Shown one piece after another: positions 8,926-45,890 of a stretch of 58,086 nucleotides of DNA. The position numbers and the translations under genes are program-made. The notes beneath the pieces are model-generated. The model was not told where the DNA came from. It saw only the letters and a list, made by a program, of their open reading frames with translations, and ran no database searches. The DNA is from Cryptosporangium minutisporangium (lineage in GTDB: Bacteria > Actinomycetota > Actinomycetes > Mycobacteriales > Cryptosporangiaceae). The stretch's first letter is position 1. Every line of letters begins with the position of its first letter. The stretch lies in NCBI RefSeq assembly GCF_039536245.1, contig NZ_BAAAYN010000061.1:1-58086 (forward strand). Reading direction: 5' to 3'.

Positions 8926-10052
8926 GTGCTCACTCTCCCGAACGGCAGTACGGCGGACACCCGGAACCCTCCGTCCGGGCACGGACCTGCGTCCAGCGAG
9001 CCACCGAACACCGCGACCCGCTCCCGCATCCCGATCAGGCCGTGCCCCGTACCCGGAACCTGCGGTGTTCCGGCCACTGGACCGGGGTCGGTGACCTCGA
9101 TCCGGACGTGATCCGGCGCTGCGGTGACCCGGAGCGTCGCCGACGGCCCGCCGTGCTTGAGGACGTTGGTCAAGCTCTCCTGCACGATGCGGTACGCCGA
9201 GAGGTCGACGCCCGGCGGGATCGCGCCGACGTCCCCGCTTACCTGGATCGTCACCGCGAGCCCTGCGTACTGCGCGACCAGGCCGTCCAGCTCGCCCAGG
9301 CCCGGGGACGGTGCGAGCGCGGCGCCCGGCTCGTTCGGCTGGCGCAGCACCCCCAGCAGCCGTCGCATCTCGACCAGCGCCGACCGGGACGTCGCCTCGA
9401 TCGCGCCCAGCGCCTGACGAGCCAGGTCGGGGCGCCGCTCGATGACGTGGTGCGCGACGCCCGCCTGCACCGCGACGACGCTCATCGAGTGGGCGACGAC
9501 GTCGTGCAGCTCCCGGGCGATCCGCATCCGCTCCTCGGTCACCGCCTGCCGGGCCCGCTCCTCGCGCTCGGCCTCGAGCCGCCGGGCCCGGTCCTCCAGG
9601 GCGGCCCACCGGGCGCGACGGGCCCGGACGTACTCGCCGCCGAGCCACGCGACGGTGACCACCAACACTGTGGTGAACCAGGTGCTGCCGTTCACCACGG
9701 TCTCCGGCTGCACGGCCAGCGCGGCCGACAGGACGACGAGCCCCACCACGTACGTCAGCCACGCCCGCGGCCGCTCGACGTGCAGCGCGTACGCGAACAC
9801 CAGCACGAACATCGCGTAACCCGGGTAGCCGGCGTATTGGCGGGCGGAGTAGGCCAGTAAGCCGACCGCGGTCACCGCGAGGACGACGGTCGGAGCCCGA
9901 CGGTGCAGCGCGTACGGCACCGTGAACGCGGCCGCGAGCAGGTAGGCGAGCGGGTCGGTGGAGGCCGCGCCGGGCTCCACCCGCGCGGTCAGCTCCACCG
10001 CGATCACGCCCAGCATCACCAGCGCGACGGCGGCATCAAGAAAGCGCGGCAT
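8922..10052 (-). CDS. NarX-type sensor histidine kinase
   Basis: A 376-residue kinase. Hydrophobic segments fill residues 1-140 (about four or five helices with little extracytoplasmic sequence). An HisKA_3 dimerisation box follows (RIARELHDVVAHSMSVVAVQ), then a HATPase region with YRIVQESLTNVLKHG and GLIGMRERVAVFGG. It presumably senses a membrane signal and phosphorylates the response regulator encoded 3' of it, with which it overlaps by 4 bases. It is divergent from the CPBP protease gene at 10155. Confidence 0.9.
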   Translation of the reverse strand: MPRFLDAAVALVMLGVIAVELTARVEPGAASTDPLAYLLAAAFTVPYALHRRAPTVVLAVTAVGLLAYSARQYAGYPGYAMFVLVFAYALHVERPRAWLTYVVGLVVLSAALAVQPETVVNGSTWFTTVLVVTVAWLGGEYVRARRARWAALEDRARRLEAEREERARQAVTEERMRIARELHDVVAHSMSVVAVQAGVAHHVIERRPDLARQALGAIEATSRSALVEMRRLLGVLRQPNEPGAALAPSPGLGELDGLVAQYAGLAVTIQVSGDVGAIPPGVDLSAYRIVQESLTNVLKHGGPSATLRVTAAPDHVRIEVTDPGPVAGTPQVPGTGHGLIGMRERVAVFGGSLDAGPCPDGGFRVSAVLPFGRVST

Positions 10053-31662: not shown

Positions 31663-31829
31663 TTCGTACGCCTGACAGTTGAATCGCCGCACCCGTGAGG
31701 AACCCGACGTTTATCCCTCGCCGAGCGGGTACTTGGCACGGTGCGGATGGGGCCGCCGGGTTGGGTGTGAGCCGCTCCGGCCGGGTCCCGTTCGCAGCAG
31801 GCAGTACTGGCGGCGAAAGGGTTCCCACG

Positions 31830-33488
31830 ATGCGTGTACTCGGGATCAACGCTCTGTTCCACGACCCGTCCGCGTGCCTCGTAGTGGACGGACGAATCGT
31901 GGCCGCCGCCGAGGAGGAGCGGTTCTCCCGGCGCAAACACGGCAAGCGTCCGGTGCCGTTCTCCGCATGGGAGGTTCCCGAGCAAGCCGCCGCCTGGTGC
32001 CTCGCCCAGGCCGGCCTGCGTCCGAGGGATGTGGACCTCGTCGGTTACGCCTACGATCCCGCGCTCGCCGAACCCGCCGACGCGCTCGGTCTGCACGACC
32101 CGTGGGACCACCTGCGCCAGATGTACGCGCGGGAGGCCCCTGGCTTCCTCGCCGAGGCGCTGCCCGGTCTCGACCCGTCGAAGGTCCGATTCGTCCGGCA
32201 CCACGTCGCGCACGCCGCGTCCGCCGCCTACGCCGCGCCGGACGCCGCCACCGGATCGGTGCTGGTGCTGGACGGCCGCGGTGAGTCGACGTCGCATCTG
32301 GCCGGTCGGCGGGTGGGCAACGAGCTGCAGACGCTGGCGTCCCAGCGACTGCCGCACTCGCTCGGACTGTTCTACGAGGACCTCACCGCCCACCTCGGCT
32401 TCCTGCGCTCGTCCGACGAGTACAAGGTGATGGCGCTGGCCTCCTACGGATCGCCGCGGATCGCCGCTGAGCTACGGCGCCGCGTCTACGCCACGGAGGA
32501 CGGCGGCTTCCGGACCACCGGCATCGACTGGACCGAGTTCTGCCCGCCGCGCCGCGCCGACGAGGCTTGGACCCAGCACCACGCGGACGTGGCGTCCTCG
32601 GCGCAGCTCGTCCTCGAGGAAGTGCTGCTCGACCTGGCGCGCTGGCTGCACGGCCAGACCGGCGACGAACTGCTCACGATGGCGGGCGGCACCGCGCTGA
32701 ACTGCGTCGCGAACTCCCGGATCGCCCGCGAAGGGCCGTTCTCCCGGGTCTGGGTGCAGCCGGCCGCCGGTGACGCCGGGACCGCGCTGGGCGCCGCCGT
32801 CTACCTGTCCGCGATGCACGGCGCCGACCCGGAGCCGATGCCCGGCGCCGACCTCGGTCGCGGCTGGTCGGACGCGGAGCTGGAGGCGTGGCTCAAGACC
32901 GCCGGCGTCCCGTACGAGCGCCCGGACGACGTCGCCGAAGCGGTCGCCGAAGCGCTCGCCGCCAACCAGATCGTCGCGTGGTTTCAGGGCCGAGCCGAGT
33001 TCGGTCCGCGGGCGCTGGGCCACCGCTCGCTGATGGCCCACCCCGGCCACTCCGGCAACCTGGAGCGGCTCAACGACGTCAAGGGCCGGGAGCAGTTCCG
33101 TCCGGTCGCTCCGATGGTGCTCTCCGACCGGGCCGGGGAGATCTTCACCAGCGGTCCGTTCCCCAGCCCCTACATGCTGTTCGTGCACGACACGAAGCCC
33201 GAGTGGCGGGACCGCATTCCGGCGGTCGTCCACGTCGACGGCACCGCGCGGATCCAGACGGTCGACCCGGCCACCGAGCCGCGGGTGGCCGCGATGCTCC
33301 GCGGGTTCGAGCGCCGGACCGGACTGCCGGTGGTCGTGAACACGAGCCTCAACACCGCGGGGCGGCCGATGGTCGACGACCCCCGGGACGCGCTGGAGTG
33401 TTTCGGGTCCGCGCCGGTGGACCTGCTCGCCCTCGGCCCGTTCGTGGTGCGGCGTGGGTCGATGTTCCGCAGCGAGGGCGGCCGATGA
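31830..33488 (+). CDS. NodU/TobZ/CmcH-family carbamoyltransferase
   Basis: A 552-residue enzyme that transfers a carbamoyl group from carbamoyl phosphate, through carbamoyl-adenylate, to a hydroxyl. The N-terminal ASKHA part starts RVLGINALFHDPSACLV and has EEERFSRRKH, RHHVAHAAS, LDGRGE and MAGGTALNCVANS. The C-terminal carbamoyl-phosphate domain has GRAEFGPRALGHRSLMA and VVNTSLNTAGRPMV. ATG 31830 follows GAAAGG. It is the first gene of the heptose-glycan operon, so the acceptor is probably a sugar of that glycan or a lipid-linked intermediate. Confidence 0.9.
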   Translation: MRVLGINALFHDPSACLVVDGRIVAAAEEERFSRRKHGKRPVPFSAWEVPEQAAAWCLAQAGLRPRDVDLVGYAYDPALAEPADALGLHDPWDHLRQMYAREAPGFLAEALPGLDPSKVRFVRHHVAHAASAAYAAPDAATGSVLVLDGRGESTSHLAGRRVGNELQTLASQRLPHSLGLFYEDLTAHLGFLRSSDEYKVMALASYGSPRIAAELRRRVYATEDGGFRTTGIDWTEFCPPRRADEAWTQHHADVASSAQLVLEEVLLDLARWLHGQTGDELLTMAGGTALNCVANSRIAREGPFSRVWVQPAAGDAGTALGAAVYLSAMHGADPEPMPGADLGRGWSDAELEAWLKTAGVPYERPDDVAEAVAEALAANQIVAWFQGRAEFGPRALGHRSLMAHPGHSGNLERLNDVKGREQFRPVAPMVLSDRAGEIFTSGPFPSPYMLFVHDTKPEWRDRIPAVVHVDGTARIQTVDPATEPRVAAMLRGFERRTGLPVVVNTSLNTAGRPMVDDPRDALECFGSAPVDLLALGPFVVRRGSMFRSEGGR

Positions 33489-33516
33489 GCGCTTGCGCGA
33501 AGAGCGGAGCGCACCG

Positions 33517-34632
33517 ATGACTTGGTCGGTCGTGATCCCGACGGTCGGGCGGCCGTCGCTCACCGCGTGCCTGTCCGGTCTGGCCGCGAGTGTGGCCTCG
33601 GCCGACGTCGGCGGGCGCGCGGGAAGTTCGGCGCCGACCGAGGTCGTGCTGGTGGACGACCGGCCGCTCACCGAGTGCGGCCCGCTCCCGGTCGAGATCC
33701 CGTCGTCGCTCCGGGTGCGGGTGGTCTACGGCTGCGGCAACGGGCCGGCGGCCGCCCGCAACGCCGGCTGGCGCACCGTGGGGACGCCCTGGGTGGTGTT
33801 CCTCGACGACGACGTCGTGCCCGGTCCGTCTTGGGCCGCCGATCTCGCCGCCGACCTCGCCGACGCCGACCGGCGGACCGGCGCGGTCCAGGGCCGGATC
33901 GAGGTACCGCTCCCCACCGACCGGAGCCCCACCGACGCCGAGCGGAACACCGCAGGGCTGGCCACGGCTGCCTGGATCACCGCCGACATCGCGTACCGGG
34001 CGTCGGCCCTGACCGCCGTCGGCGGCTTCGACGAGCGGTTCCGCCGCGCCTTCCGGGAAGACGCCGACCTCGCGCTCCGCGTCCAGGACGCCGGGTGGGA
34101 ACTGGTCATGGGCCGACGCACCACCGTCCACCCGGTACGGATTGACGACGCGTTCGCTTCGGTGCGCGCCCAGGCAGGCAACGCGGACGACGTCCTGATG
34201 ACCCGGCTGCACGGCGACGAGTGGTGGGAGCGCGCCGACGCGCCCCGCGGCCGGTTCACCCGGCACGTCGTCGTCACCGCCGCGGGTATGGCCGCGGTCG
34301 CCCTCGGGCTGGCCGGACGGCGACGAGCCGCAGGGCTCGCCGCCGGGGCCTGGCTCGCCGGCACCGCGGAGTTCGCCGCGGCGCGGATCGCGCCGGGACC
34401 GCGGACGCCACGCGAGATCGCCACGATGCTCGCCACCAGCGCGCTGATCCCGCCCGCTGCGCTCACCCATCACCTGCGCGGCCGCTGGCGTCACCGCCAT
34501 GCGGAGCCGTGGCCCCCGGAGCCATGGCCGCCCGGTGCCGCCGCACCCGCCGCACCGGCCGCGGTGCTGGACGCGGTGCCCGCCGGGTCGGCCGCACGCG
34601 TCGCCGCGGAGAGCGGGGTGGTGGCCCGGTGA
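33517..34632 (+). CDS. GT2 glycosyltransferase with C-terminal membrane region
   Basis: A 371-residue GT-A enzyme: SVVIPTVGRPSL start, NGPAAARNAGW, the metal-binding FLDDDVVP motif and AFREDADLALRVQDAGW. Around residues 250-325 are hydrophobic segments that would anchor it in the membrane. The tail has a short Pro-rich repeat (EPWPPEPWPPG). It lies 28 bp after the carbamoyltransferase gene, and its stop overlaps the GmhB-like gene (GTGA). Donor and acceptor are unknown. Confidence 0.87.
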   Translation: MTWSVVIPTVGRPSLTACLSGLAASVASADVGGRAGSSAPTEVVLVDDRPLTECGPLPVEIPSSLRVRVVYGCGNGPAAARNAGWRTVGTPWVVFLDDDVVPGPSWAADLAADLADADRRTGAVQGRIEVPLPTDRSPTDAERNTAGLATAAWITADIAYRASALTAVGGFDERFRRAFREDADLALRVQDAGWELVMGRRTTVHPVRIDDAFASVRAQAGNADDVLMTRLHGDEWWERADAPRGRFTRHVVVTAAGMAAVALGLAGRRRAAGLAAGAWLAGTAEFAAARIAPGPRTPREIATMLATSALIPPAALTHHLRGRWRHRHAEPWPPEPWPPGAAAPAAPAAVLDAVPAGSAARVAAESGVVAR

Positions 34633-35267
34633 ACGCGACGGCTGTCGCGTCGGTGCTCGCGCCGGACGCCTGGCTGTACCGCGGCCGTCCACAGCCGGAG
34701 CCGGCGGACTCCGGCCCCGGCGCGGTCCCCCGGGCCGTCCTGTTCGACCGGGACGGCACGCTGACCGAGGACGACCCGCCGTACAACGGCGACCCGGCGA
34801 ACGTTCGGCTCCGACCGACCGCCCGGGAGGCGGTGGACGTCCTCCGTGCCCGCGGTATCGCGGTCGGCGTCGTCAGCAACCAGTCCGGCGTCGGGCGTGG
34901 CCTGCTCACCCGCTCCCAGGTCGAGGCCGTCGCCGGCCGGATCGAGGAGCTGCTGGGCCGGTTCGACGTCTGGGTCTTCTGCCCGCACGTCCCCGACGAC
35001 GGCTGCACCTGCCGTAAGCCCGCGCCGGGGATGGTGCTGGCGGCCGCCGGCGCGCTCGGCGTCGCACCGTCCGACGTGGCCGTGATCGGCGACATCGGCG
35101 CGGACCTGGGCGCCGCCGCCGCGGCCGGGGCCACCGGCATCCTGGTCCCGACCACGGTCACCCGGCCCGAGGAGGTCGCCGCCGCGGGCACCGTGGCGCC
35201 CGATCTGCTCACCGCCGTCTCCGCGCTGCTGAGCCCCCGGAAGGCCGCCGGGCAGGTGGTCCGATGA
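34629..35267 (+). CDS. gmhB: HAD phosphatase, D-glycero-D-manno-heptose 1,7-bisphosphate phosphatase
   Basis: A 212-residue HAD-IIIA phosphatase: LFDRDGTLTEDDPPYN (nucleophile and acid aspartates), SNQSGVGRG, the zinc loop CPHVPDDGCTCRKPAPGM, and VIGDIGADLGAA. This layout is that of GmhB/histidinol-phosphatase. With GmhA and HldE in the same operon, the heptose bisphosphate role is by far the likeliest. About 35 extra N-terminal residues precede the HAD motif; GTG 34629 is set by the GTGA overlap. Confidence 0.88.
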   Translation: MNATAVASVLAPDAWLYRGRPQPEPADSGPGAVPRAVLFDRDGTLTEDDPPYNGDPANVRLRPTAREAVDVLRARGIAVGVVSNQSGVGRGLLTRSQVEAVAGRIEELLGRFDVWVFCPHVPDDGCTCRKPAPGMVLAAAGALGVAPSDVAVIGDIGADLGAAAAAGATGILVPTTVTRPEEVAAAGTVAPDLLTAVSALLSPRKAAGQVVR

Positions 35268-36307
35268 CGACGCTGATCGTCCGACTGGACAGCGCCGGGG
35301 ACGTCCTGCTCGCCGGGCCCGCCGTCCGGGCCGTGGCGGCGGGCTCCGACCACGTCGTGTTCCTCTGTGGACCACAGGGCGCCGCCGCCGCCCGCCTGCT
35401 GCCCGGCGTCGACGAGATCGTGGTCTGGGACGCGCCGTGGGTCGGCCTGCAGCCGCCGCCGGTCCGCCCGGACGACGTCCAGCAGATCGTCCACGCGCTG
35501 CACGGCATCGACCGAGCGCTGATCCTGGCCAGCTTCCACCAGAGCCCGCTCCCGACCGCACTCGTGCTGCGCCTGTCCGGCGTCGGATGGATCGGCGCCG
35601 ACAGCGAGCACTACCCGGGCTCGCTGCTCGACCTACGGCACCAGCGGGCCCCGCACCGGCACGAAGCCGACGCCGCCCTCGACCTCGCGATCGCCGCCGG
35701 GTACCGGCTCCCGCCCGGCGACGACGGCCGGATGGCGATCCTGCCGCCGCCGGACGTCCGCGCGCTGACCGGTGAGGACCCGTACGTCGTGGTCCACCCG
35801 GGCGCCGCAGTTCCGGCCCGGGCACCGAGCATGGACACCGCCGTCGACGCCACCGAGGCGCTGCTCACCGCCGGTCACCGCGTGCTGCTCACCGGCGGCC
35901 CCGACGAGACCGCGCTGACCGCCGCGATCGCCCGCCGCACCGGCGCCGTCGACCTCGGCGGCCGCACCAATCTGCACGGCCTCGGCGGCATCCTCGCCGG
36001 CGCAGCCGCCGTCGTGGTCGGCAACACCGGACCGGCGCACCTCGCCGCCGCGGTCGGTACGCCCGTCGTCTCGCTGTTCGCCCCGGTGGTGCCCGCCGAG
36101 CGGTGGGCGCCCTACCGGGTGCCCCAGGTCCTGCTCGGCGATCAGGACGCCCCCTGCGCCGGAAGCCGAGCGCGCACCTGCCCGATCCCGGGTCACCCCT
36201 GTCTCTCGTCGATCCGCGGTGCCGATGTCGTGGCCGCTGTCGACTCCCTCATCGCCCGGGTCAAGCAGCGGCCCGCCCCTCAGAACACCCGGGAGGTGAT
36301 CGCGTGA
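35264..36307 (+). CDS. GT9 heptosyltransferase-like glycosyltransferase
   Basis: A 347-residue GT-B enzyme of family 9: LIVRLDSAGDVLLAGPAVRAV start, VVHPGAAVPAR, and the donor-binding VVGNTGPAHLAAAVGTPVVSLFAP. In Gram-negative bacteria GT9 enzymes move ADP-heptose onto LPS core; here no LPS genes exist, so the acceptor is a different glycan or lipid. ATGA overlap with gmhB. A second GT9 lies at 40470, so two distinct heptosyl transfers are possible. Confidence 0.87.
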   Translation: MTTLIVRLDSAGDVLLAGPAVRAVAAGSDHVVFLCGPQGAAAARLLPGVDEIVVWDAPWVGLQPPPVRPDDVQQIVHALHGIDRALILASFHQSPLPTALVLRLSGVGWIGADSEHYPGSLLDLRHQRAPHRHEADAALDLAIAAGYRLPPGDDGRMAILPPPDVRALTGEDPYVVVHPGAAVPARAPSMDTAVDATEALLTAGHRVLLTGGPDETALTAAIARRTGAVDLGGRTNLHGLGGILAGAAAVVVGNTGPAHLAAAVGTPVVSLFAPVVPAERWAPYRVPQVLLGDQDAPCAGSRARTCPIPGHPCLSSIRGADVVAAVDSLIARVKQRPAPQNTREVIA

Positions 36308-37263
36308 ACATCCTGCTCTGGCACGTGCACGGCTCGTGGACCACCGCGTTCGTCCACGGTCCACACCGGTACCTGATACCGGTGACGCCGGACCGAGGGC
36401 CGGACGGACTGGGCCGCGCCCAGACCTACGAGTGGCCGGCCTCCGCCGTCGAGCTGACCCCGGAGCAGCTGCGCGAGGCCGCGATCGACGTGGTCGTGCT
36501 GCAGCGGCCATCCGAGGTCGCGCTGGTCGAGCAGTGGATCGGTCGCCGTCCCGGCGTCGACGTCCCGGCCGTCTACCTGGAGCACAACGCTCCGGGGACG
36601 GGCGGCGCCGGCACCGGCGGCGTGCCCGACACCCGGCACCCGATGGCCGACGCCGGGCTGCCGATCGTCCACGTGACGCACTTCAACCGGTTGTTCTGGG
36701 ACTCGGGCGCCAGCCGGACCGTCGTCATCGAACACGGGATCCCGGACCCGGGACACCGGTACACCGGCGAGATCCCCCGGGCCGCGGTCGTGGTCAACGA
36801 CCCGGTCCGCCGGGGCCGGTGGACCGGGACCGACCTGCTGCCGGGGCTGGCGGCCGCGGCGCCGCTGGACGTGTTCGGCATGCGCGCGGACCAGCTCGAC
36901 GTTCCCGGGATCCGCACGTTCGACCTGCCACAGGCCCAGCTGCACGACGCGATGGCCGCCCGGCGGCTCTACCTGCACCCGATCCGCTGGACGTCGCTCG
37001 GGCTGTCGTTGCTGGAGGCGATGCACCTCGGGGTCCCGGTGGTGGCGCTGGCGACCACCGAGGTCTACCGGGCCGTGCCGCCCGGCGCCGGGGTGATCTC
37101 CACCGACCCGGAGGAGCTGGCCGCCGCCGCGCGCCGGTACCTCGCCGACCCGGACCTGGCCGCGGCGCACGGTACCGCCGCCCGGCACGCAGTGCTCGAG
37201 CGGTACGGCCTCAAACGATTCCTGGACGACTGGGACGCACTGTTGGAGGAGGTGGTCGCATGA
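36304..37263 (+). CDS. GT4-like glycosyltransferase
   Basis: A 319-residue GT-B enzyme. The N-terminal acceptor half starts NILLWHVHGSWTTAFVHGPHRY; the C-terminal donor half shows the E-x7-E-like region SLGLSLLEAMHLGVPVVALA and a closing helix (LERYGLKRFLDDW). It is shorter than typical GT4 enzymes (350-400). GTG 36304 is set by the GTGA overlap with the GT9 gene, and its 3' end overlaps the next GT4 gene by 4 bases. The sugar is unknown. Confidence 0.82.
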   Translation: MNILLWHVHGSWTTAFVHGPHRYLIPVTPDRGPDGLGRAQTYEWPASAVELTPEQLREAAIDVVVLQRPSEVALVEQWIGRRPGVDVPAVYLEHNAPGTGGAGTGGVPDTRHPMADAGLPIVHVTHFNRLFWDSGASRTVVIEHGIPDPGHRYTGEIPRAAVVVNDPVRRGRWTGTDLLPGLAAAAPLDVFGMRADQLDVPGIRTFDLPQAQLHDAMAARRLYLHPIRWTSLGLSLLEAMHLGVPVVALATTEVYRAVPPGAGVISTDPEELAAAARRYLADPDLAAAHGTAARHAVLERYGLKRFLDDWDALLEEVVA

Positions 37264-38531
37264 GGATCTCCTTGATATCCGAACACGCCAGCCCGCTGGC
37301 GGTCCTCGGCGAGGTCGACGCCGGCGGGCAGAACGTCCACGTGGCGAGCCTGGCCACCGCGCTCGCCGCACGCGGCCACCAGGTGACCGTCCACACCCGG
37401 CGGGACGACCCCGCGCTGCCGACGACCACCCCGTTCGCGCCGGGGGTCACCGTGCACCACGTGACCGCCGGCCCACCCACCTACGTCCCCAAGGACGAGC
37501 TGGTGCCGTTCATGCCGTCGTTCGGCGACGAGCTCGCGGCGTACTGGCGGACCGCGCGGCCGGACGTGGTCCACGCGCATTTCTGGATGTCCGGGCTCGC
37601 CGCGCTCGGCGGCGCCCGGCAGCTCGACGGGCCGCCGGTCCCGGTCGTGCAGACGTTCCACGCGCTCGGCAGCGTCAAGCGGCGTCACCAGGGCGCGGCC
37701 GACACCAGCCCGCCCGGGCGGATCGCGGACGAGCTGATGATCGGCCGCAGCGTCCACCGCACGGTCGCGACCTGCGCCGACGAGGTACGGGAGCTGCGGG
37801 AACTCGGGGTGCCGGTGGAGCGCATCCAGGTCGTGCCGTGCGGGGTGGACGTCGAGACGTTCACCCCGTCCGGCCCGGTCGAGCCGCGCACCGCCCGTCC
37901 GCGGCTGCTGCAGGTCGGTCGCTTGGTGCCGCGTAAGGGCGCGGACGTCGCTCTGCGCGCGCTGCGCCGCATTCCGGACGCCGAGCTGCTGCTCGCCGGG
38001 GGCCCCGCCGCCGACCGCCTCGACGACGATCCGGAGGCACAGCGGCTGCGTTCGCTGGCGCTCGAACACGGCGTCGCCGACCGGCTCGTGCTGCTCGGCG
38101 GCGTCGAGCGGAGCCGGATGCCGGCCCTGTTCCGCAGCGCCGACGTCGTCCTCTGCCCACCGCGGTACGAGCCGTTCGGCATCGTGCCGCTGGAGGCGAT
38201 GGCCTGCGCGAGACCGGTCGTGGCCAGTGCCGTCGGCGGTCACCTGGACACCGTCGCGGACGGCCGCACCGGGCGGCTCGTCCCCCCGGACGACCCGCAG
38301 GCGCTCGCCGCGGCCGCGTGTGACCTGCTCGCCGACTCCCGCATGCGCACCGCGTTCGGCGCCGCCGGACGGCGCCGTGCCGAGAGCCGCTACGGCTGGG
38401 ACCGGGTCGCCGCGGCGACCGAGGTCGCCTACCGCGGCGTGCTCTCCGCCCGTCCCGCGCCACGCCGCATCACCACCTCGGCGGTCCGCCGCAGCCGGTC
38501 GACCGCCACCGCGACAGGAGCAGCCCGATGA
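37260..38531 (+). CDS. GT4 glycosyltransferase
   Basis: A 423-residue GT-B enzyme. It has the donor/acceptor glycine motif GEVDAGGQNVHVASLATAL, HAHFWMSG and the retaining GT4 signature RYEPFGIVPLEAMACARPVV. This resembles MshA/sucrose-synthase-like retaining transferases that use nucleotide sugars. The last ~25 residues are basic and probably a flexible tail. It is coupled to its neighbours by ATGA overlaps on both sides. Confidence 0.88.
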   Translation: MRISLISEHASPLAVLGEVDAGGQNVHVASLATALAARGHQVTVHTRRDDPALPTTTPFAPGVTVHHVTAGPPTYVPKDELVPFMPSFGDELAAYWRTARPDVVHAHFWMSGLAALGGARQLDGPPVPVVQTFHALGSVKRRHQGAADTSPPGRIADELMIGRSVHRTVATCADEVRELRELGVPVERIQVVPCGVDVETFTPSGPVEPRTARPRLLQVGRLVPRKGADVALRALRRIPDAELLLAGGPAADRLDDDPEAQRLRSLALEHGVADRLVLLGGVERSRMPALFRSADVVLCPPRYEPFGIVPLEAMACARPVVASAVGGHLDTVADGRTGRLVPPDDPQALAAAACDLLADSRMRTAFGAAGRRRAESRYGWDRVAAATEVAYRGVLSARPAPRRITTSAVRRSRSTATATGAAR

Positions 38532-39145
38532 CCTCTCAGCTGGACCGTCCTGTATATACCGGCCTCGACCAGGCCGTCGAGCACTGTGTCGCTCTGGAGG
38601 AGACCCTCGTCCGGCTCCGCCGTACTCAGCTGCCGCTGCTCAGCGAGTGGGGCGAGTCGCTCGCCGACCGGCTCTCGACCGGATCGCGTCTGCTCGCCGC
38701 CGGTAACGGCGGGAGCGCCGCGCAGGCGCAGCACCTCACCGCCGAGCTGGTCGGCCGTTACCAGGAGGACCGGCCCGCGTTCTCGGCGATCGCGCTGCAC
38801 GCCGAGACGTCCAGCCTGACCGCGATCGGCAACGACTACGGGTTCGAGGAGCTGTTCGCCCGTCAGGTCGCCGCGCACGGCCGGCCGGGCGACGTGCTGG
38901 TCGCGATGTCGACGTCCGGCAGCAGCCGCAACCTGCTGCGCGCCGCCGATGTGGCCCGTGAGCTGGGCGTCACGGTCTGGGCGATGACCGGGCCCGCCTC
39001 CAACCCGCTGGCGGCCGCGGCGGACTCCGCGCTCTGCGTCGAGGCGAGAAGCACCGCGACCGTGCAGGAGGCCCACCTCGTCGCGCTGCACCTGATGTGC
39101 GCGGCGTTCGACACGGCGCTGGCCGGGCGCCGGTTGTCGGCATGA
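38528..39145 (+). CDS. gmhA: Sedoheptulose-7-phosphate isomerase (SIS domain)
   Basis: A 205-residue SIS protein: LLAAGNGGSAAQAQHLTAELVGRY, then LTAIGNDYGFEELFARQV and MSTSGSSRNLLRAA, the phosphosugar-binding residues of GmhA. It converts sedoheptulose 7-phosphate to D-glycero-D-manno-heptose 7-phosphate, the first step of the heptose pathway. ATGA overlap upstream, and its stop overlaps the HldE-like gene. Confidence 0.9.
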   Translation: MTSQLDRPVYTGLDQAVEHCVALEETLVRLRRTQLPLLSEWGESLADRLSTGSRLLAAGNGGSAAQAQHLTAELVGRYQEDRPAFSAIALHAETSSLTAIGNDYGFEELFARQVAAHGRPGDVLVAMSTSGSSRNLLRAADVARELGVTVWAMTGPASNPLAAAADSALCVEARSTATVQEAHLVALHLMCAAFDTALAGRRLSA

Positions 39146-40473
39146 GCGGGCCGCTCGTCGTCGTCGGGGACGCGCTCCTCGACCGGGACCTCGACGGGAC
39201 TGCGACCCGGCTCGCGCCGGACGCGCCCGTGCCGGTCGTGGATCTCACCGGCGAACGGGCCCGTCCCGGCGGCGCGGCACTCGCCGCGTGCCTGGCCGCC
39301 GAGCGCACGTCCCGCGAGGTCGTGCTGGTGACCGCGATCGGCTCGGGCCCGGACGCCGACACGCTGCGCGGCCTGCTGGCCGGTCGGGTGCGGCTGGTCG
39401 AGCTGCCGCTGCGCGGCAGCCTGCCGGTCAAGACCCGGGTCCGCGCCGGCGGGCGTCCGCTGCTGCGGCTCGACCGAGGTGACGGCGTGCCGCTCCCCGG
39501 TCCGGACGCCGGAGTCGGCGACGTTCTGGCGCACGCCGCCGCGGTGCTCGTCGCCGACTACGGGCGCGGCCTGGCCGACGTCGTCCGCCCGGAGCTGGCC
39601 GCTGCGGCCCGTCGGGTACCGCTGCTCTGGGACCCGCACCCGCGCGGCGACGTACCGGTGCCGGGCGCCCGGCTGGTCACGCCGAACGCGTCCGAGGCGG
39701 ACGGTTCCAGCGCGGCCGAGCTGGCGGCCTCCTGGAACGCGTCGTCGGTGGCGGTGACGCTGGGGTCGCGCGGGGCAATGCTCAGCCGCGGCACGGCGTC
39801 GCCGATGCTGGTCCCGACGCCGTTCGTCGCGACCGGTGACCCCTGCGGCGCCGGCGACTGCTTCTCCGCGACCGCGGCGGTCGCGCTCGCCGACGGAGCG
39901 CTGCCCGAGGAGGCGGTGGCCCGCGCGGTCGCCGCCGCCACTGCGTTCGTGGACGCCGGGGGCGCCGCGGCGTGGCCGGGGCCCGGACCCCGCACGCCGG
40001 CTACGGACTCGCTCGCCGAGGCGAAGGCGCTGGTGCGGGCCGTGCACGCCCGCGGTGGAACCGTGGTGGCCACCGGCGGGTGCTTCGATCTGCTGCACGC
40101 CGGCCACGTCGGGCTGCTGGAGGCGGCCCGCCGCACCGGCGACTGCCTGATCGTGTGCCTCAACTCCGACGCGTCGGTGGCCCGGCTGAAGGGCCCCGGC
40201 CGGCCGCTGAACACCGCCGCGGACCGTGCCCGGGTGCTGGCCGGGCTGGCCTGCGTCGACGCGGTCGTCGTGTTCGACGAGGACACTCCGGAGCAGGTGC
40301 TGACCGAACTCCGGCCGGACCGCTGGGTCAAGGGTGGCGACTACACGGTGGAGGCGCTGCCCGAGGCTGCGGTGGTGCGCTCGTGGGGCGGTGAGGCCGT
40401 GGTCCTGCCCTATCTGGACGGGCACTCGACGACGAGCCTGGTGCAGCGCGCTGCCGTGGGAGCGTCGCGATGA
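39142..40473 (+). CDS. hldE: Bifunctional heptose-7-P kinase / heptose-1-P adenylyltransferase
   Basis: A 443-residue fusion. Residues 1-295 are a PfkB-type sugar kinase (GDPCGAGDCFSATAAVAL). Residues ~310-443 are a nucleotidyltransferase (GGCFDLLHAGHVGLL, LNSDASVARLKGP, RWVKGGDYT). It makes heptose 1,7-bisphosphate, and after GmhB it activates heptose 1-phosphate to ADP-heptose. No HldD epimerase gene is in the operon, so the D-glycero form is probably the donor. Many actinobacteria use similar enzymes; an alternative nucleotide cannot be excluded. Confidence 0.88.
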   Translation: MSGPLVVVGDALLDRDLDGTATRLAPDAPVPVVDLTGERARPGGAALAACLAAERTSREVVLVTAIGSGPDADTLRGLLAGRVRLVELPLRGSLPVKTRVRAGGRPLLRLDRGDGVPLPGPDAGVGDVLAHAAAVLVADYGRGLADVVRPELAAAARRVPLLWDPHPRGDVPVPGARLVTPNASEADGSSAAELAASWNASSVAVTLGSRGAMLSRGTASPMLVPTPFVATGDPCGAGDCFSATAAVALADGALPEEAVARAVAAATAFVDAGGAAAWPGPGPRTPATDSLAEAKALVRAVHARGGTVVATGGCFDLLHAGHVGLLEAARRTGDCLIVCLNSDASVARLKGPGRPLNTAADRARVLAGLACVDAVVVFDEDTPEQVLTELRPDRWVKGGDYTVEALPEAAVVRSWGGEAVVLPYLDGHSTTSLVQRAAVGASR

Positions 40474-41528
40474 GCAGCGTCCTGGTGCTGCGGGCGCTCG
40501 GACTCGGTGATCTGCTCACCGTGGTTCCGGCGCTGCGGGCGCTCCGGCGACACTTCCCGTCGCACGAGATCGTGCTGGCGGCACCGTCGCGGCTCGCCGA
40601 GGCCGCTGCGGCTACCGGCGTGGTCGACCGGCTGCTGCCGACGACCGCGCCCGGCCGGGAGGTGCCGACGACGCTGGATTGGTCCGGGCCGCCCCCGGAC
40701 GTCGCGGTGGACCTGCACGGCAACGGTCTGCTCAGCCATCGGGTGCTCGCCGCGCTGCGGCCGGGTCGCCTGCTCGGGTGGGCCCACCCGGACCTGCCGT
40801 CCCACGAGGGGCCGGTGTGGAGCGCGGACGACCACGAGCGGGTGCGGTGGTGCCGTCTGCTGCGGTGGTACGGGATCTCCGCCGAGCCGGACGACGTCCG
40901 GCTCGACGTGAGCGCGCTACCCGGGCCCGGGCCGGTGCTGATCCACCCGGGCGCCGACGCCGGAGCGCGCCGCTGGCCCGCCGAGCGGTTCGCCGCGGTC
41001 GCCCGGGCGCTGGTCACGGCCGGGGTACCGGTGATGGTGACCGCCGGGATCGGCGAGCGGGACCTCGCGGAACAGGTGGCGGACGCCGCCGGGCTGCCGC
41101 GGGAGGCGGTGGTCGGCGGTGCGGCCGACGTTCCGTTCCGGGAGCTGGCGGTACGCGTGGCCGGGGCCCGCGCCGTCGTCGTCGGCGACACCGGCATCGC
41201 GCACCTGGCCAGTGCGGTCGCCGCACCCTCGGTCGTCCTGTTCGGACCGGTGTCGCCCGCGCTGTGGGGACCGCCTGCGCACACCCGGCACCGCGTGCTG
41301 TGGCGCGCCGACGACCCCGCGGTACTCCGGCCCGGCGACGCCCACGGCACGTCGCCGGACCCGCGTCTGCTGCGCATCCGGGTCGAGGACGTGCTGGCCG
41401 AGCTGGAGACGCTCGGTGTCCCGACCAGTTCACCGCTCCCGGCCAGTTCGCCGCTCCCGGCCAGTTCACCGCTCCCGGCCAGTTCGCCGCTCCCGGCCGG
41501 CTCGCCGCTCAGCGGAGCGGTCCGGTGA
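40470..41528 (+). CDS. GT9 heptosyltransferase-like glycosyltransferase with repeat tail
   Basis: A 352-residue GT-B enzyme: VLVLRALGLGDLLTVVPALRAL start, LIHPGADAGARRWPAERFAAV, and VVGDTGIAHLASAVAAPSVVLFGP. This is the classic GT9 layout, so it is a second candidate heptosyltransferase. The C-terminus ends in an 18-bp tandem repeat (41425-41514) coding SSPLPA units, probably a flexible tail. ATGA overlap with hldE and GTGA overlap with the next gene. Confidence 0.88.
   Translation: MSSVLVLRALGLGDLLTVVPALRALRRHFPSHEIVLAAPSRLAEAAAATGVVDRLLPTTAPGREVPTTLDWSGPPPDVAVDLHGNGLLSHRVLAALRPGRLLGWAHPDLPSHEGPVWSADDHERVRWCRLLRWYGISAEPDDVRLDVSALPGPGPVLIHPGADAGARRWPAERFAAVARALVTAGVPVMVTAGIGERDLAEQVADAAGLPREAVVGGAADVPFRELAVRVAGARAVVVGDTGIAHLASAVAAPSVVLFGPVSPALWGPPAHTRHRVLWRADDPAVLRPGDAHGTSPDPRLLRIRVEDVLAELETLGVPTSSPLPASSPLPASSPLPASSPLPAGSPLSGAVR
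41425..41514 (+). repeat. 18-bp coding tandem repeat in the GT9 tail
   Basis: Five units of 18 bp begin at 41425, 41443, 41461, 41479 and 41497. The first four read CCAGTTC(a/g)CCGCTCCCGG with the variable base alternating a, g, a, g, so the true unit may be 36 bp; the fifth is degenerate. Each codes SSPLPA. The length is a multiple of 3, so copy change would not shift the frame. Confidence 0.9.
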
Positions 41529-42391
41529 CCGTCTCGCTCGCCCCACTACGGACCGCCACCACCGGGGTGGTCCTGATCACCCGCGACCGGCGCGAGCGGA
41601 CCCTGGACACGCTCGACCACCTGGCGACGCTGCCGGACCAGCCGCCGATCGTGGTGGTCGACAACGCGTCCACCGACGGCACCGCGGACGCGGTCGCCGC
41701 CCGGCACCCTTCCGTCCGGGTCCTGCGGCTGGACACCAATCAGGGGGCCGTGGCCCGAACGCTCGGCGCGCGGCTGCTCGACACGCCCTACCTCGGGTTC
41801 AGCGACGACGACTCCTGGTGGAGCCCGGGATCGCTGTCGCGGGCGGCCGGGTTGATGACCCGGTATCCCCGGCTCGGACTGATCGCCGCACGGGCCCTCG
41901 TCGGCCCGGAGGAGCGCGAGGATCCGCTGAACGAGGTCCTGGCCACCTCGCCGCTCGGTACCGCCGCCGACCTGCCCGGCCCGTCCGTCCTCGGGTTCCT
42001 GGCCTGCGCGAGCATCGTCCGCCGGAGCGCGTTCCTCGAGGTCGGCGGCTTCTCGCCGGTACTGCACTTCGCCGGGGAGGAGACGCTGCTGGCGATCGAC
42101 CTCTCCGCGGCCGGCTGGGGCGTCGCGTACGTCCCGTCGGTGATCGCCCACCACCACCCGGACACCGGCCCGCGGGTGGGCCGGAACCTCCGGCAGCGCC
42201 GCAACGCGCTGCTCACCACCTGGCTGCGCCGTCCGTGGCCGGTCGTCGCCGCCGAGACGGCGAGCCTGGCCGGGCGGGATCCCGAAGCCCGCCGCGCGCT
42301 GCTCGCCGCACTGCCCAAACTTCCCGCCGCACTGCGGCACCGCCGACGCCTTCCGGGCCGCGTCGAGCACGATCTGACGCTCCTTTCCTGA
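41525..42391 (+). CDS. GT2 glycosyltransferase
   Basis: A 288-residue GT-A enzyme: GVVLITRDRRERTLDTL, VVVDNASTDGTADAVA, the FSDDDSWWSPG metal motif, and LHFAGEETLLAIDLSAAGW. No membrane anchor is evident. GTG 41525 overlaps the previous stop. It is clearly paralogous to the next gene (same VDNASTDGTA, DDD(S/T)WW and GGEE(T/E)LLA-type blocks), so the two arose by tandem duplication. Confidence 0.88.
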   Translation: MTVSLAPLRTATTGVVLITRDRRERTLDTLDHLATLPDQPPIVVVDNASTDGTADAVAARHPSVRVLRLDTNQGAVARTLGARLLDTPYLGFSDDDSWWSPGSLSRAAGLMTRYPRLGLIAARALVGPEEREDPLNEVLATSPLGTAADLPGPSVLGFLACASIVRRSAFLEVGGFSPVLHFAGEETLLAIDLSAAGWGVAYVPSVIAHHHPDTGPRVGRNLRQRRNALLTTWLRRPWPVVAAETASLAGRDPEARRALLAALPKLPAALRHRRRLPGRVEHDLTLLS

Positions 42392-42400
42392 GAGGACTTC

Positions 42401-43315
42401 ATGTTCGACGAACGTGTCACCGTCGCGGTGATCACGCACAACCGCCGGGACGAGCTGCTGCACACGCTCGACCAGCTCGCCGCCCTCCCGGAGCGGCCGG
42501 CGGTCATCGTGGTGGACAACGCGTCCACCGACGGGACCGCGGAGGCCGTCGCCCAGCGCCACCCGGACGTCCGGCTGCTGCGCCCCGGGCGCAACCTCGG
42601 TGCGTGCGGCCGGAACCTCGCCGCACGGGAGGTGACCACCCCGTACCTCGCGTTCTGCGACGACGACACGTGGTGGGAGCCGAAGTCGCTGGCCGGCGCC
42701 GCCGACCTGCTCGACGCCCACCCGATGGTCGCCGCGGTGACCGCCCGGATCGTCGTCCACGACCGGGACCATCCCGAGCGCGAGCCGTACGAGGATCCGA
42801 TCGTCCCGGAGCTGCGTGACTCGCCGGTGCCTTCGCCGGCCTGGCTGCCCGGCCCGGCGCTCGGCTCGTTCTTGGCCGGCGCGACCGTGGTCCGGCTCGA
42901 GCCGTTCCGGGACGCCGGTGGCTTCTCGCCGCGGCTGTGGCTCGGCGGCGAGGAGGAGCTGCTCGCGGTCGACCTGGCCGCGGCGGGATGGTGGCTGGTC
43001 TACGCGGAGCACCTGACGATCCACCACCGGCCCTCCCCCGCCCGCGATTCGACGCTCCGACGGCGGCACGGCATCCGGAACACACTGTGGTTCACCTGGC
43101 TGCGCCGGCCGGTCGGGCGGGCGCTGCGGCGCAGTGCATTCCTCGCGACGACCGTGCCCAGGGACAAGACGTCACTGCTGGCGTTCGCCGAGGCCGCGGC
43201 CGGGTTGCCGTGGGTGCTCCGGGAACGGCGGGCCGCGCCGGACTGGGTCGAACGTGGCCTCCGGGCGCTGGAGGCTCCCCAGCGCGAGTCGGGAGCCCGT
43301 ACCTATGTCGGCTAG
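42401..43315 (+). CDS. GT2 glycosyltransferase, paralogue of the preceding gene
   Basis: A 304-residue GT-A enzyme: VAVITHNRRDELLHTLDQL, VVDNASTDGTAEAVAQ, FCDDDTWWEP and WLGGEEELLAVDLAAAGWW. It is preceded by AGAGGA 5 bp before ATG 42401, and its 9-bp gap from the previous gene is one of only two non-overlapping junctions in the operon. Its TAG stop (43313-43315) falls exactly at the start of the 66-bp repeat array and overlaps the pyruvyltransferase start by 11 bases. Confidence 0.88.
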   Translation: MFDERVTVAVITHNRRDELLHTLDQLAALPERPAVIVVDNASTDGTAEAVAQRHPDVRLLRPGRNLGACGRNLAAREVTTPYLAFCDDDTWWEPKSLAGAADLLDAHPMVAAVTARIVVHDRDHPEREPYEDPIVPELRDSPVPSPAWLPGPALGSFLAGATVVRLEPFRDAGGFSPRLWLGGEEELLAVDLAAAGWWLVYAEHLTIHHRPSPARDSTLRRRHGIRNTLWFTWLRRPVGRALRRSAFLATTVPRDKTSLLAFAEAAAGLPWVLRERRAAPDWVERGLRALEAPQRESGARTYVG

Positions 43316-44756
43316 CCCTGCGTCGGATCCCGGCTCTCCCTCAGCGCCCAGCGACGGTGCGGTCGGCGAGACGAGGGTTAGCCCTGCGTCGGATCCCGGC
43401 TCTCCCTCAGCGCCCAGCGACGGTGCGGTCGGCGAGACGAGGGTTAGCCCTGCGTCGGATCCCGGCTCTCCCTCAGCGCCCAGCGACGGTGCGGTCGGCG
43501 AGACGAGGGTTAGCCCTGCGTCGGATCCCGGCTCTCCCTCAGCGCCCAGCGACGGTGCGGTCGGCGAGACGAGGGTTAGCCCTGCGTCGGATCCCGGCTC
43601 TCCCTCAGCGCCCAGCGACGGTGCGGTCGGCGAGACGAGGGTTAGCCCTGCGTCGGATCCCGGCTCTCCCTCAGCGCCCAGCGACGGTGCGGTCGGCGAG
43701 ACGAGGGTTAGCCCTGCGTCGGATCCCGGCTCTCCCTCAGCGCCCAGCGACGGTGCGGTCGGCGAGACGAGGGTTAGCCCTGCGTCGGATCCCGGCTCTC
43801 CCTCAGCGCCCAGCGACGGTGCGGTCGGCGAGACGAGGGTTGACCGTCCCATTCTGGTCACCGGGTGGTTCAGCTTCCTGCACGGCGAGGCGACCGCCGG
43901 TGACGTGCTCGCGGCCGACGCGGTCACCACGACGCTGGACGCCGCCCGGCTGCCGTACGACGTCGCCTGGTCACCCGGCTTCCGTCCGGACGCCCTGCAC
44001 CTGGACGCCGTCGACCCGTCCGACTACGCCGCGGTGGTGTTCGCCTGCGGGCCGCTGCACAGCACGCCGCCCGGCCCGGGTATCCCCAGTCCGCTGCTCG
44101 ACCTGCACGAGCGGTTCGCGGGCACGCGCCGCGTAGCGGTCGGCGTGTCCGTCCCCGACCCGTGCGACCCGGCCGTGACCGGCTTCGACGTCGTCCTCGC
44201 GAGGGACGCCGCCGACCAGCAGCCGGCGGCCGACCTGGCGCTCGCCGCCCCGGAGCCGTCCCCGGTGCCGGTGGTGGGCGTGATCCTCACCGACGGCCAG
44301 CAGGAGTACGGCGCCCGTCGCCGGCACGGGTCGGTGGCCGATGCGCTCACCGGCTGGCTGCACGGACTCGACGTCGCCCGGCTGCCGCTCGACACCCGGC
44401 TGGACACCCGCGACTGGCGGCTGGCGGCCACGCCCGGCCAGCTGCGCTCGGTGCTGACCTGCCTGGACGCGATCGTCACGACCCGGCTGCACGGGCTGGT
44501 GCTGGGCCTGCAGGCGGGCGTTCCGGTGCTCGCGGTCGATCCGGTGGCCGGCGGCGCCAAGGTGACCGCCCAGGGCAGGGCCCTCGACTGGCCCGCCGTA
44601 CTCGCCGCCGACGACCTGGACAACCTCGAAGACCAGTGGCGGTGGTGCCTCTCCCCCGCGGCCAGGGCCCGCGCGGCGACGTACCGGACCGGGCACGCCC
44701 CGGACGACCTGACCAAGGGGTTGATCGACGCGCTCCGGGTACCGCTGCAGGTATGA
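43305..44756 (+). CDS. Polysaccharide pyruvyltransferase with an 8 x 22-residue repeat N-terminus
   Basis: A 483-residue protein from ATG 43305. Residues ~4-179 are eight identical 22-residue units (SPASDPGSPSAPSDGAVGETRV pattern, read as SPASDPGSPS then APSDGAVGETRV), acidic, Ser/Pro-rich and probably disordered. The rest is a pyruvyltransferase domain: GWFSFLHGEATAGDVLAADA, VILTDGQQEYGARR and TTRLHGLVLGLQAGVPVLA. It transfers pyruvate from PEP onto a sugar as a ketal. There is no in-frame start between the repeats and the domain until GTG 43905, which would remove the conserved GWFSF motif, so the repeats must be translated. Confidence 0.85.
   Translation: MSASPASDPGSPSAPSDGAVGETRVSPASDPGSPSAPSDGAVGETRVSPASDPGSPSAPSDGAVGETRVSPASDPGSPSAPSDGAVGETRVSPASDPGSPSAPSDGAVGETRVSPASDPGSPSAPSDGAVGETRVSPASDPGSPSAPSDGAVGETRVSPASDPGSPSAPSDGAVGETRVDRPILVTGWFSFLHGEATAGDVLAADAVTTTLDAARLPYDVAWSPGFRPDALHLDAVDPSDYAAVVFACGPLHSTPPGPGIPSPLLDLHERFAGTRRVAVGVSVPDPCDPAVTGFDVVLARDAADQQPAADLALAAPEPSPVPVVGVILTDGQQEYGARRRHGSVADALTGWLHGLDVARLPLDTRLDTRDWRLAATPGQLRSVLTCLDAIVTTRLHGLVLGLQAGVPVLAVDPVAGGAKVTAQGRALDWPAVLAADDLDNLEDQWRWCLSPAARARAATYRTGHAPDDLTKGLIDALRVPLQV
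43314..43841 (+). repeat. 8 x 66-bp perfect coding tandem repeat
   Basis: Exactly 528 bp made of eight apparently identical 66-bp units starting at 43314, 43380, 43446, 43512, 43578, 43644, 43710 and 43776. Each starts AGCCCTGCGTCGGATCCCGG and ends GAGACGAGGGTT. The unit length is divisible by 3, so gain or loss of copies keeps the pyruvyltransferase frame. All three plus frames are not equally open: the frame of the upstream GT2 gene meets TAG in every unit. The identity of units implies recent expansion or active homogenisation. Confidence 0.97.
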
Positions 44757-45844
44757 CACGAGTTCTCGCGGTCACCGCCGGCTCGCACAGCGTCGGGGTC
44801 GCGCTGCTCCGGACGACCGGCGACCCGGACGCGATCGAGGAGCTCGCCGCCCGGACCCTGGACGTCGAGCCGGGATCCTCCGAGGCGGCGGACGCGCTCC
44901 GGGACTTCGTCGGAGACCTTCCGGAGCAGCCGGACGCGGTCGGGCACCGACTCGTGCACGGCGGCCGCGTGGTGGCGGTGCCCACCGTCGTCGACGACGC
45001 GCTCGCCGACGCACTGGCCGACACGGCCGACCTGGCGCCGCAGCACGTCCCACCCGCGCTCGCGCTGCTGGCTTCGGCGCGGGACGCCCTCCCGGACGTT
45101 CCCCACTACGTCTGTCCGGACACCGCCTTCCACGCCGGACTGCCACCGGCCGCGGCGATGCTGCCGCTGCCCGCCGAGTGGCGGGAGCGCTGGCGGCTGC
45201 ACCGCTACGGGTTCCACGGCCTGTCCTACGCGTGGGCGTCCCGGCGCGCTGCGGTGCTGCTCGGCCGGCCGTCTCCCAACCTCGTGGTCGCCCATCTCGG
45301 GGGCGGCGGCTCGGTCTGCGCGATCGCCGGCGGGCGGAGCGTCGACACTACGATGGGGATGACGCCGCTGGACGGGATCCCGATGACCAAGCGCTCCGGG
45401 GCGGTGGACCCCGGGCTGTTGCTCTGGCTGCTGGACGGGCGGTTGACGCTCGACGAGCTCTCCGAGGGGTTGCAGCGCCGGTCGGGGCTGCTGGGCATGT
45501 CCGGTGGGCTCTCCGACGACACCCGGGAGCTGGTCGCGTCCTCCGAGCCGGCCGCCGCCGCGGCGCTGGACGCGTACGCGCACGCGGTGCGGCGGGCGAT
45601 CGGGGCGATGGCCGCGTCGCTGCCCCACTTGGACGCGCTGGTGTTCACCGGGGAGATCGGGTGGGACCAGCCCGAGGTGCGCGCGGCGGTCTGCTCGGAG
45701 CTCGCGGTGCTGGGCATTCAGCCGGTGAGCGGCGGCAACCGCGAGGACGACGGCGTGATCTCCAGCGCGGGCGTCCCCGTGCTCGTCGTCGAAACGAAGG
45801 AGGAGCACCAGATCGCCCGAGAAGTGACCACCGCACTCAGGTAG
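44753..45844 (+). CDS. Acetate kinase family protein (ASKHA)
   Basis: A 363-residue acetate-kinase homologue, shorter than the usual ~400. It keeps GHRLVHGG, PDTAFH, HRYGFHGLSY, AHLGGGGS, GMTPLDGIPMTKRSG and the TKEEHQIAR end. Compared with canonical enzymes, the N-terminal INAGSSS asparagine reads as VTAGSHS, and the GIGENS loop reads EIGWDQ, so nucleotide or acyl-phosphate handling may be altered. ATGA overlap with the pyruvyltransferase gene makes it the last gene of the glycan operon. It may supply or recycle an acyl phosphate; its real role there is unknown. Confidence 0.85.
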   Translation: MTRVLAVTAGSHSVGVALLRTTGDPDAIEELAARTLDVEPGSSEAADALRDFVGDLPEQPDAVGHRLVHGGRVVAVPTVVDDALADALADTADLAPQHVPPALALLASARDALPDVPHYVCPDTAFHAGLPPAAAMLPLPAEWRERWRLHRYGFHGLSYAWASRRAAVLLGRPSPNLVVAHLGGGGSVCAIAGGRSVDTTMGMTPLDGIPMTKRSGAVDPGLLLWLLDGRLTLDELSEGLQRRSGLLGMSGGLSDDTRELVASSEPAAAAALDAYAHAVRRAIGAMAASLPHLDALVFTGEIGWDQPEVRAAVCSELAVLGIQPVSGGNREDDGVISSAGVPVLVVETKEEHQIAREVTTALR

Positions 45845-45852
45845 CGCAACCT

Positions 45853-45890
45853 CATATGGACGCTACGAGCCGGTCGGTAGCGTCCATATG
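45853..45890. terminator. Perfect 14-bp hairpin ending the glycan operon
   Basis: CATATGGACGCTAC (45853-45866) and GTAGCGTCCATATG (45877-45890) with a 10-nt loop begin 8 bp after the last stop. It lies between convergent genes (kinase homologue and catalase) and can serve both. A GCTTGTTATTACAAGC hairpin (45900-45915) follows. Confidence 0.8.

Follow-up and report, generated by a model that had tools for sequence, protein, structure and literature searches.

What would an actinobacterium that appears to be free of lipopolysaccharide do with a compact set of genes for making, transferring and decorating heptose? The question is raised by a thirteen-gene operon in a 58,086-nucleotide stretch of Cryptosporangium minutisporangium DNA (NZ_BAAAYN010000061.1, here contig C61 of a 9.23-Mb genome with 99.6% completeness and 3.6% contamination), referred to as the window. 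A sequence-only reading had presented the operon as an unrecognised system for a heptose-containing, carbamoylated and pyruvylated glycan. By sequence comparison, genes 1–12 are a cwg-type (cell wall glycan) cluster of the kind known from Streptomyces coelicolor, and genes 1–11 are the counterparts of cwgB-cwgL in order. The cluster is real, conserved and largely known in kind; it is a new example, not a new system. The best explanation of the whole, to which a probability of about 0.72 is given, is a cwg-type cluster that makes a decorated heptose oligosaccharide of the envelope. The genes are as follows.

31830-45844, plus strand: thirteen-gene operon, all reading frames open, families by Pfam
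31830..33488, plus strand: gene 1, NodU/TobZ-type O-carbamoyltransferase, CwgB counterpart (PF16861, 217 bits; PF02543, 173 bits)
33517..34632, plus strand: gene 2, GT2 glycosyltransferase, CwgC counterpart (PF00535, 44 bits)
34629..35267, plus strand: gene 3, GmhB-type heptose bisphosphate phosphatase (HAD), CwgD counterpart by position
35264..36307, plus strand: gene 4, GT9 heptosyltransferase-type protein, CwgE counterpart (PF01075, 71.6 bits)
36304..37263, plus strand: gene 5, compact GT4-type glycosyltransferase, CwgF counterpart by position (alignment of 21 sequences)
37260..38531, plus strand: gene 6, GT4 glycosyltransferase, CwgG counterpart (PF00534, 135 bits)
38528..39145, plus strand: gene 7, GmhA sedoheptulose-7-phosphate isomerase (SIS), CwgH counterpart (PF13580, 87 bits)
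39142..40473, plus strand: gene 8, bifunctional HldE kinase/adenylyltransferase (PfkB and cytidylyltransferase-like), CwgI counterpart
40470..41528, plus strand: gene 9, GT9 heptosyltransferase-type protein, CwgJ counterpart (PF01075, 73 bits)
41525..42391, plus strand: gene 10, GT2 glycosyltransferase, CwgK counterpart by position (PF00535, 65.5 bits)
42401..43315, plus strand: gene 11, GT2 glycosyltransferase, CwgL counterpart by position (PF00535, 77.9 bits)
43305..44756, plus strand: gene 12, predicted polysaccharide pyruvyltransferase, N-terminus built of repeats (PF04230, 34 bits, cut-off 25.3)
44753..45844, plus strand: gene 13, divergent acetate-kinase paralogue (PF00871, 274 bits)

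The operon had been described as thirteen co-directional genes with mostly 4-base overlaps, and both this arrangement and the family assignments for all thirteen genes held up against the open reading frames and Pfam. An overlap of 4 bases is found at 9/12 junctions, the other three being +28, +9 and -11 with the chosen starts.

In Streptomyces coelicoflavus (locus L124) the counterparts of window genes 1–11 stand in the same order behind an epimerase gene, at 58–73% identity (73%, 59%, 64%, 68%, 64% and 59% for genes 1–6; 68%, 61%, 58%, 58% and 72% for genes 7–11). The sigma-E promoter published for the S. coelicolor cwg operon was found in L124 with 3 mismatches (0/100 shuffles match), and it lies about 160 bases before the epimerase gene, the published distance being 147 (PMC6767563). 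Together with the published gene labels, this promoter match shows the L124 block to be cwgA-L, with window genes 1–11 as the counterparts of cwgB-L. The equivalence was tested on S. coelicoflavus L124, not on S. coelicolor sequence, and the letters F, K and L were assigned by position; via L124, window genes 1–11 have the same content and order as cwgB-cwgL of the S. coelicolor operon (sco6179-6190). In the passages available, cwgH is labelled a phosphoheptose isomerase and cwgI a bifunctional synthase/transferase (PMC5839063), cwgE is labelled a putative heptosyl transferase (PMC5882110), and the operon is described as vancomycin-induced and partly sigma-E-dependent (PMC6767563).

The gene set is not a chance assembly, since other actinobacteria also have genes 1–11, in many cases arranged alike. 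A search with the window HldE, covering its own genome and 60 relatives, gave matches in 41/61 at E ≤ 0.001 and in 27/61 at E ≤ 1e-40, and the cluster was present in 26 of the 29 relatives' regions that were fetched, HldE having a different context in the other three. A gene 5 profile built from 21 sequences gave at least 584 confirmed stretches in named genomes, among which a gene may count twice because two patterns were used. The best 80 loci were kept, and all are actinobacterial, most from Streptomyces; gene 5 was called in 79/80, accompanied by HldE at the same locus in 72/79. A simple gene caller was applied to 81 loci no shorter than 18 kb (53 from named genomes and 28 others), for which the per-gene counts are biased because HldE or gene 5 served to select the loci: carbamoyltransferase 64, GT2 69, GmhB 46 (an undercount, as GmhB is sometimes fused to GT2), GT9a 73, GT4a 76, GT4b 78, GmhA 70, HldE 77, GT9b 69, GT2b 45, GT2c 39, pyruvyltransferase 28 and acetate-kinase-like 3. 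All eleven core genes occur in 33/81 loci, and the exact window order is kept in 22 of the 33. The window itself carries the whole cwgB-L core, namely carbamoyltransferase, GT2, GmhB, GT9, GT4, GT4, GmhA, HldE, GT9, GT2 and GT2, all co-directional, and a gene 12-type pyruvyltransferase is a common cwg neighbour.

A wider screen for gene 5 and HldE covered 396 genomes from across the phylum. Gene 5 scored at least 454 bits in 32/396 genomes and 263–297 bits in 7 more; at E ≤ 0.001 it matched in 302/396, mostly through general GT4 similarity. HldE was matched at E ≤ 1e-60 in 34/396. HldE accompanies gene 5 in 28 of the 32 strong gene 5 genomes (own genome included), each pair lying on one contig within 8 kb, and in 2/7 of the weaker ones, in one case on another contig. 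At E ≤ 1e-60, HldE is missing from four of the strong gene 5 genomes, and four HldE genomes are without gene 5. The gene 5 family occurs mainly in cwg-type clusters; its AlphaFold2 model has a predicted local distance difference test (pLDDT) score of 88.7, and the PDB fold matches are GT4 / GT-B enzymes.

Genes 3, 7 and 8 point to the sugar donor. The ADP-heptose pathway set of GmhA, HldE (both domains) and GmhB is present, with Pfam matches over cut-off, fitting NCBIfam names and recognisable motifs in the window translations. The top NCBIfam model for gene 3 is heptose 1,7-bisphosphate 7-phosphatase (118 bits, below the cut-off of 178), and its translation carries DRD and CPH..CTC residues, which we take to be the GmhB-type motif. 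For gene 7 the top three isomerase models score 150–173 bits, all below their cut-offs. The adenylyltransferase domain of gene 8 exceeds the cut-off of TIGR02199 (193 bits against 181.5), the kinase domain scores 99 bits against 345 for TIGR02198 and the whole protein 266 bits against 521 for the HldE model; the motifs HAGH, GAGD and LDGHSTT are present. The statement that the operon has no HldD proved true of the whole genome, where the best TIGR02197 score is 103 bits against a cut-off of 274.6 that 2/14 control genomes pass; an HldD encoded elsewhere in the genome was thereby rejected. No LpxC match was obtained in the 9.23-Mb genome by a search that was positive in 4/14 control genomes, which supports the earlier description of the organism as free of lipopolysaccharide. 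As no HldD above cut-off is present, ADP-D-glycero-D-manno-heptose would be expected as the donor, staying in the D,D form.

What the enzymes act on, how the product is decorated, where it ends up and that it has a role in the envelope are inferred from homology with the S. coelicolor cwg operon. GmhA, HldE and GmhB would supply this ADP-heptose; the two GT9 enzymes would transfer heptose, and the five GT2/GT4 enzymes would add other sugars to give an oligosaccharide of several residues. The gene 1 product would carbamoylate a sugar, most likely heptose, and the PF04230 protein of gene 12 would add a pyruvate ketal. A carbamoylated heptose suggests itself as the product of the gene 1 enzyme because, in the part of the Pseudomonas work available, the carbamoyl group on the heptose of the lipopolysaccharide core is assigned to a putative carbamoyltransferase, WapO (PMC8005017). 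Like the Pseudomonas inner core locus, the window combines heptosyltransferases with a putative heptose carbamoyltransferase; unlike it, the window operon has no core kinases, and the genome has no LpxC and no HldD above cut-off. Of the glycan first proposed, the heptose, heptosyltransferase and carbamoyl components are thus supported by families and context, and the acetate-kinase-like gene is not included.

Assembly of the glycan would take place in the cytoplasm on some carrier, and proteins encoded outside the cluster would bring it to the envelope. A hydropathy scan (19-residue mean) gave stretches up to 1.89 in GmhB, GT9a, GT4a and GT9b, which we judge to be buried within soluble domains. 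The cluster therefore encodes no clear membrane protein, and carrier and export functions would have to come from other loci. For both Wzy_C and LytR-CpsA-Psr, four matches in the genome exceed the cut-off, and contig C61 carries none of them. No general exporter emerged from the neighbouring genes: an MFS family is found in 27/109 loci, of which 26 are in Streptomyces, Actinacidiphila or Kitasatospora and 1 in Saccharopolyspora, but in 0/29 loci from the window's own order.

Several points weigh against a heptose-based envelope glycan of the cwg type. GmhA, GmhB and the HldE kinase domain fall under their NCBIfam equivalog cut-offs, which only the adenylyltransferase domain passes, and GT9 members may use other donors. 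The PF04230 match of window gene 12 spans only about 50 residues, and its top 50 PDB fold matches include no pyruvyltransferase, being generic GT-B enzymes with low template modelling (TM) scores. No exporter or carrier gene was identified for the cluster, and the cluster is patchy across the phylum, as the fractions of the 396 genomes with strong gene 5 or HldE matches indicate. The S. coelicolor operon has cwgA at its head, whereas the window cluster has no cwgA directly upstream, and no sigma-E-like site (AAC-N15-18-CGTC) was found upstream in the window or in its congeners G001 and G003, a consensus that may not fit this genus. Two published labels also differ from the assignments made here, cwgD being a putative dehydratase (PMC5839063; GmhB here) and cwgE a GT1 protein (PMC5882110; GT9 here). 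In the literature that could be searched, which excludes most subscription journals, no structure of a cwg product was found; the role of cwg is termed predicted, putative or tentative in the passages available (PMC6767563, PMC5882110, PMC5839063), and the main text of PMC3123327 (Hesketh et al. 2011) has no cwg passage.

Since neither cwgA nor the published promoter was found at the window cluster, the window is filed under the conserved cwgB-L core and not under the complete published 12-gene operon. The nearest CwgA relative in the genome (60% identical) is encoded on contig C44 and is retained, at 95% identity, in the congeneric genome G002, where the cluster is missing at its locus. It is therefore doubtful that CwgA has moved elsewhere and still serves the window cluster. 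In three other genomes (G019, G031 and G048) the best CwgA match is on the cluster's contig, near the cluster. A cluster-type epimerase is present in 70/109 loci, some of which are short contigs, and so is not universal in these clusters. On contig C44 (locus L149, 6475-8799, genome G000) the CwgA-like epimerase gene adjoins a LytR-CpsA-Psr gene on the same strand.

The best start of gene 12 is the ATG at 43305, which overlaps the end of gene 11 and corrects an earlier start. In the window the gene is inside the operon, whereas in S. coelicoflavus L124 the pyruvyltransferase gene is further downstream on the other strand. An alignment of the window protein with 26 of the 29 homologues found in the collected loci has a PF04230 match in 27/27 proteins. 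The AlphaFold2 model is confident (pLDDT 94.4), and a PDB profile search listed pyruvyl transferase 1 (5ax7) at no better than E = 0.59. Given such generic, low-TM-score GT-B matches, the predicted pyruvyl transfer is likely rather than demonstrated. The earlier claim of pyruvylation is thus plausible from the family match, though no pyruvyltransferase stands among the fold matches. The N-terminus of the window protein is formed by a repeat array.

43313..43841, plus strand: eight perfect 66-bp tandem repeats, in frame, encoding 22-aa units (Tandem Repeats Finder, 8.0 copies, 100% match)

The array begins after the third codon of gene 12, and the orthologues in G001 and G003 have no repeats and begin directly at the domain. 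The identity of the copies suggests either a very recent expansion or an assembly effect.

Gene 13 had been counted as an acyl-phosphate enzyme of the glycan system, and the possibility that all thirteen genes cooperate, with the acetate-kinase-like protein supplying acyl phosphate to the decoration enzymes, has some points in its favour. The gene overlaps gene 12 by 4 bases and has the same place in G001 and G003, which carry all thirteen genes (gene 13 identity 84% and 81%, respectively). Its protein is 40% identical to the genome's canonical AckA, encoded on contig C43 after a pta-like gene identified by eye. It departs from AckA at N7, where threonine replaces the conserved asparagine, and in the HLGNGAS loop, so that its substrate may differ; R91-, H180-, R241- and E384-type residues appear to be kept. 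Cooperation of all thirteen genes is nevertheless very improbable in view of the locus in G002, the order of which is GH3, MFS and TetR genes, an 826-aa gene on the other strand, gene 13 and catalase. Genes 1–12 are absent from this locus in G002, where the genome-wide search was made with HldE alone and gave a partial match (E = 2e-18). The G002 and window copies of gene 13 are 90% identical, with a ratio of non-synonymous to synonymous substitution rates (dN/dS) of 0.134, indicative of purifying selection; the flanking genes matched between G002 and the window are 73–94% identical, and four of them give dN/dS values of 0.158–0.295. Loss of the twelve genes in G002 is the simplest reading, because G001 and G003, whose gene 13 copies are less similar to the window's, have all thirteen. 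Gene 13 is kept beside the catalase gene in all four congeneric genomes, and it is matched in only 3/81 loci, namely those of two congeners and L048, where it sits with an 806-aa gene on the strand opposite the cluster. A part in the pathway was accordingly rejected. Kept under purifying selection in G002 without the other twelve genes, gene 13 is probably independent of the glycan pathway, an operon member by position only, and looks like a bystander. Judged by the G002 locus, gene 12 appears to be the last of the cluster, and G002 could serve as a comparison strain. The 826-aa gene of G002 (locus L183, 6278-8758) has a P-loop-like GLGGIGKS stretch and no Pfam match, and fills the place of the missing cluster.

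The closest solved chains to gene 1 include decarbamoylnovobiocin carbamoyltransferase, GdmN and TobZ, which belong to the same family and act in antibiotic pathways, and septacidin is a nucleoside antibiotic; the cluster might then make a diffusible heptose natural product, septacidin-like or aminoglycoside-like, and not an envelope glycan. Streptomyces fimbriatus, likewise a Gram-positive, draws on ADP-heptose to make septacidin, according to the available text of a commentary on Tang et al. 2024 (PMC11461863), and the lack of a clear membrane protein would also fit. We regard a diffusible product as distinctly unlikely. The thirteen genes include no gene for a non-sugar scaffold and none for nucleoside assembly, they encode seven glycosyltransferases, and gene 1, unlike the enzymes with antibiotic substrates, sits with heptosyltransferases; moreover, many actinobacterial families possess the core, a spread not typical of a secondary metabolite, and the S. 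coelicolor operon responds to vancomycin through sigma-E (PMC6767563, in the part available). An envelope glycan might instead be built from another sugar or donor, such as CDP-heptose, UDP-heptose or some further activated heptose, or by GT9 enzymes with other donors, and the low scores of the isomerase, phosphatase and kinase leave room for this. Among 88 cwg-type HldE proteins, the window included, the GxS(T/S)(T/S) motif has arginine in 66/88 and histidine in 12/88, and arginine in a closely similar motif has been linked to the use of CTP and UTP besides ATP, according to the same partly available commentary. The window HldE has histidine there, and may be stricter in nucleotide use than most of its relatives; with an adenylyltransferase domain that passes TIGR02199, a different donor is unlikely here, and ADP-heptose remains the preferred one.

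Two elements flank the operon.

31670..31713, plus strand: blocks GCCTGACAGTT and ACCCGACGTTTA, common to three congeneric species, a possible regulatory element
45853..45890, no strand assigned: perfect hairpin with 14-nt arms (45853-45866 and 45877-45890) and a 10-nt loop, between convergent genes

ACCCGACGTTTA has a single occurrence in the window, and the two congeners alone share it among loci L033-L141. The 14-bp hairpin described earlier at the end of the operon is confirmed with perfect arms, and it lies between gene 13 and the convergent catalase gene; it has no T-run, and a terminator scan gave no T-rich terminator. Elsewhere in the window a tRNA-Asp(gtc) call of 96 nt (9559-9654, minus strand) is long for a tRNA-Asp.

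The interest of the cluster lies in the unsolved cwg product. It is possible, if somewhat short of an even chance, that many lipid-A-free actinobacteria build a carbamoylated, often pyruvylated D-glycero-D-manno-heptose oligosaccharide, similar to the inner core of lipopolysaccharide, as a stress-responsive envelope component with this cluster as its biosynthetic core. NDP-heptoses have known immune activity (PMC11461863, in the text available). If the proposal is true, ADP-heptose, a metabolite sensed by hosts, would be a common product of environmental actinobacteria. The cwg core, read as heptose and carbamate with pyruvate common nearby, gives the cwg product a testable composition.

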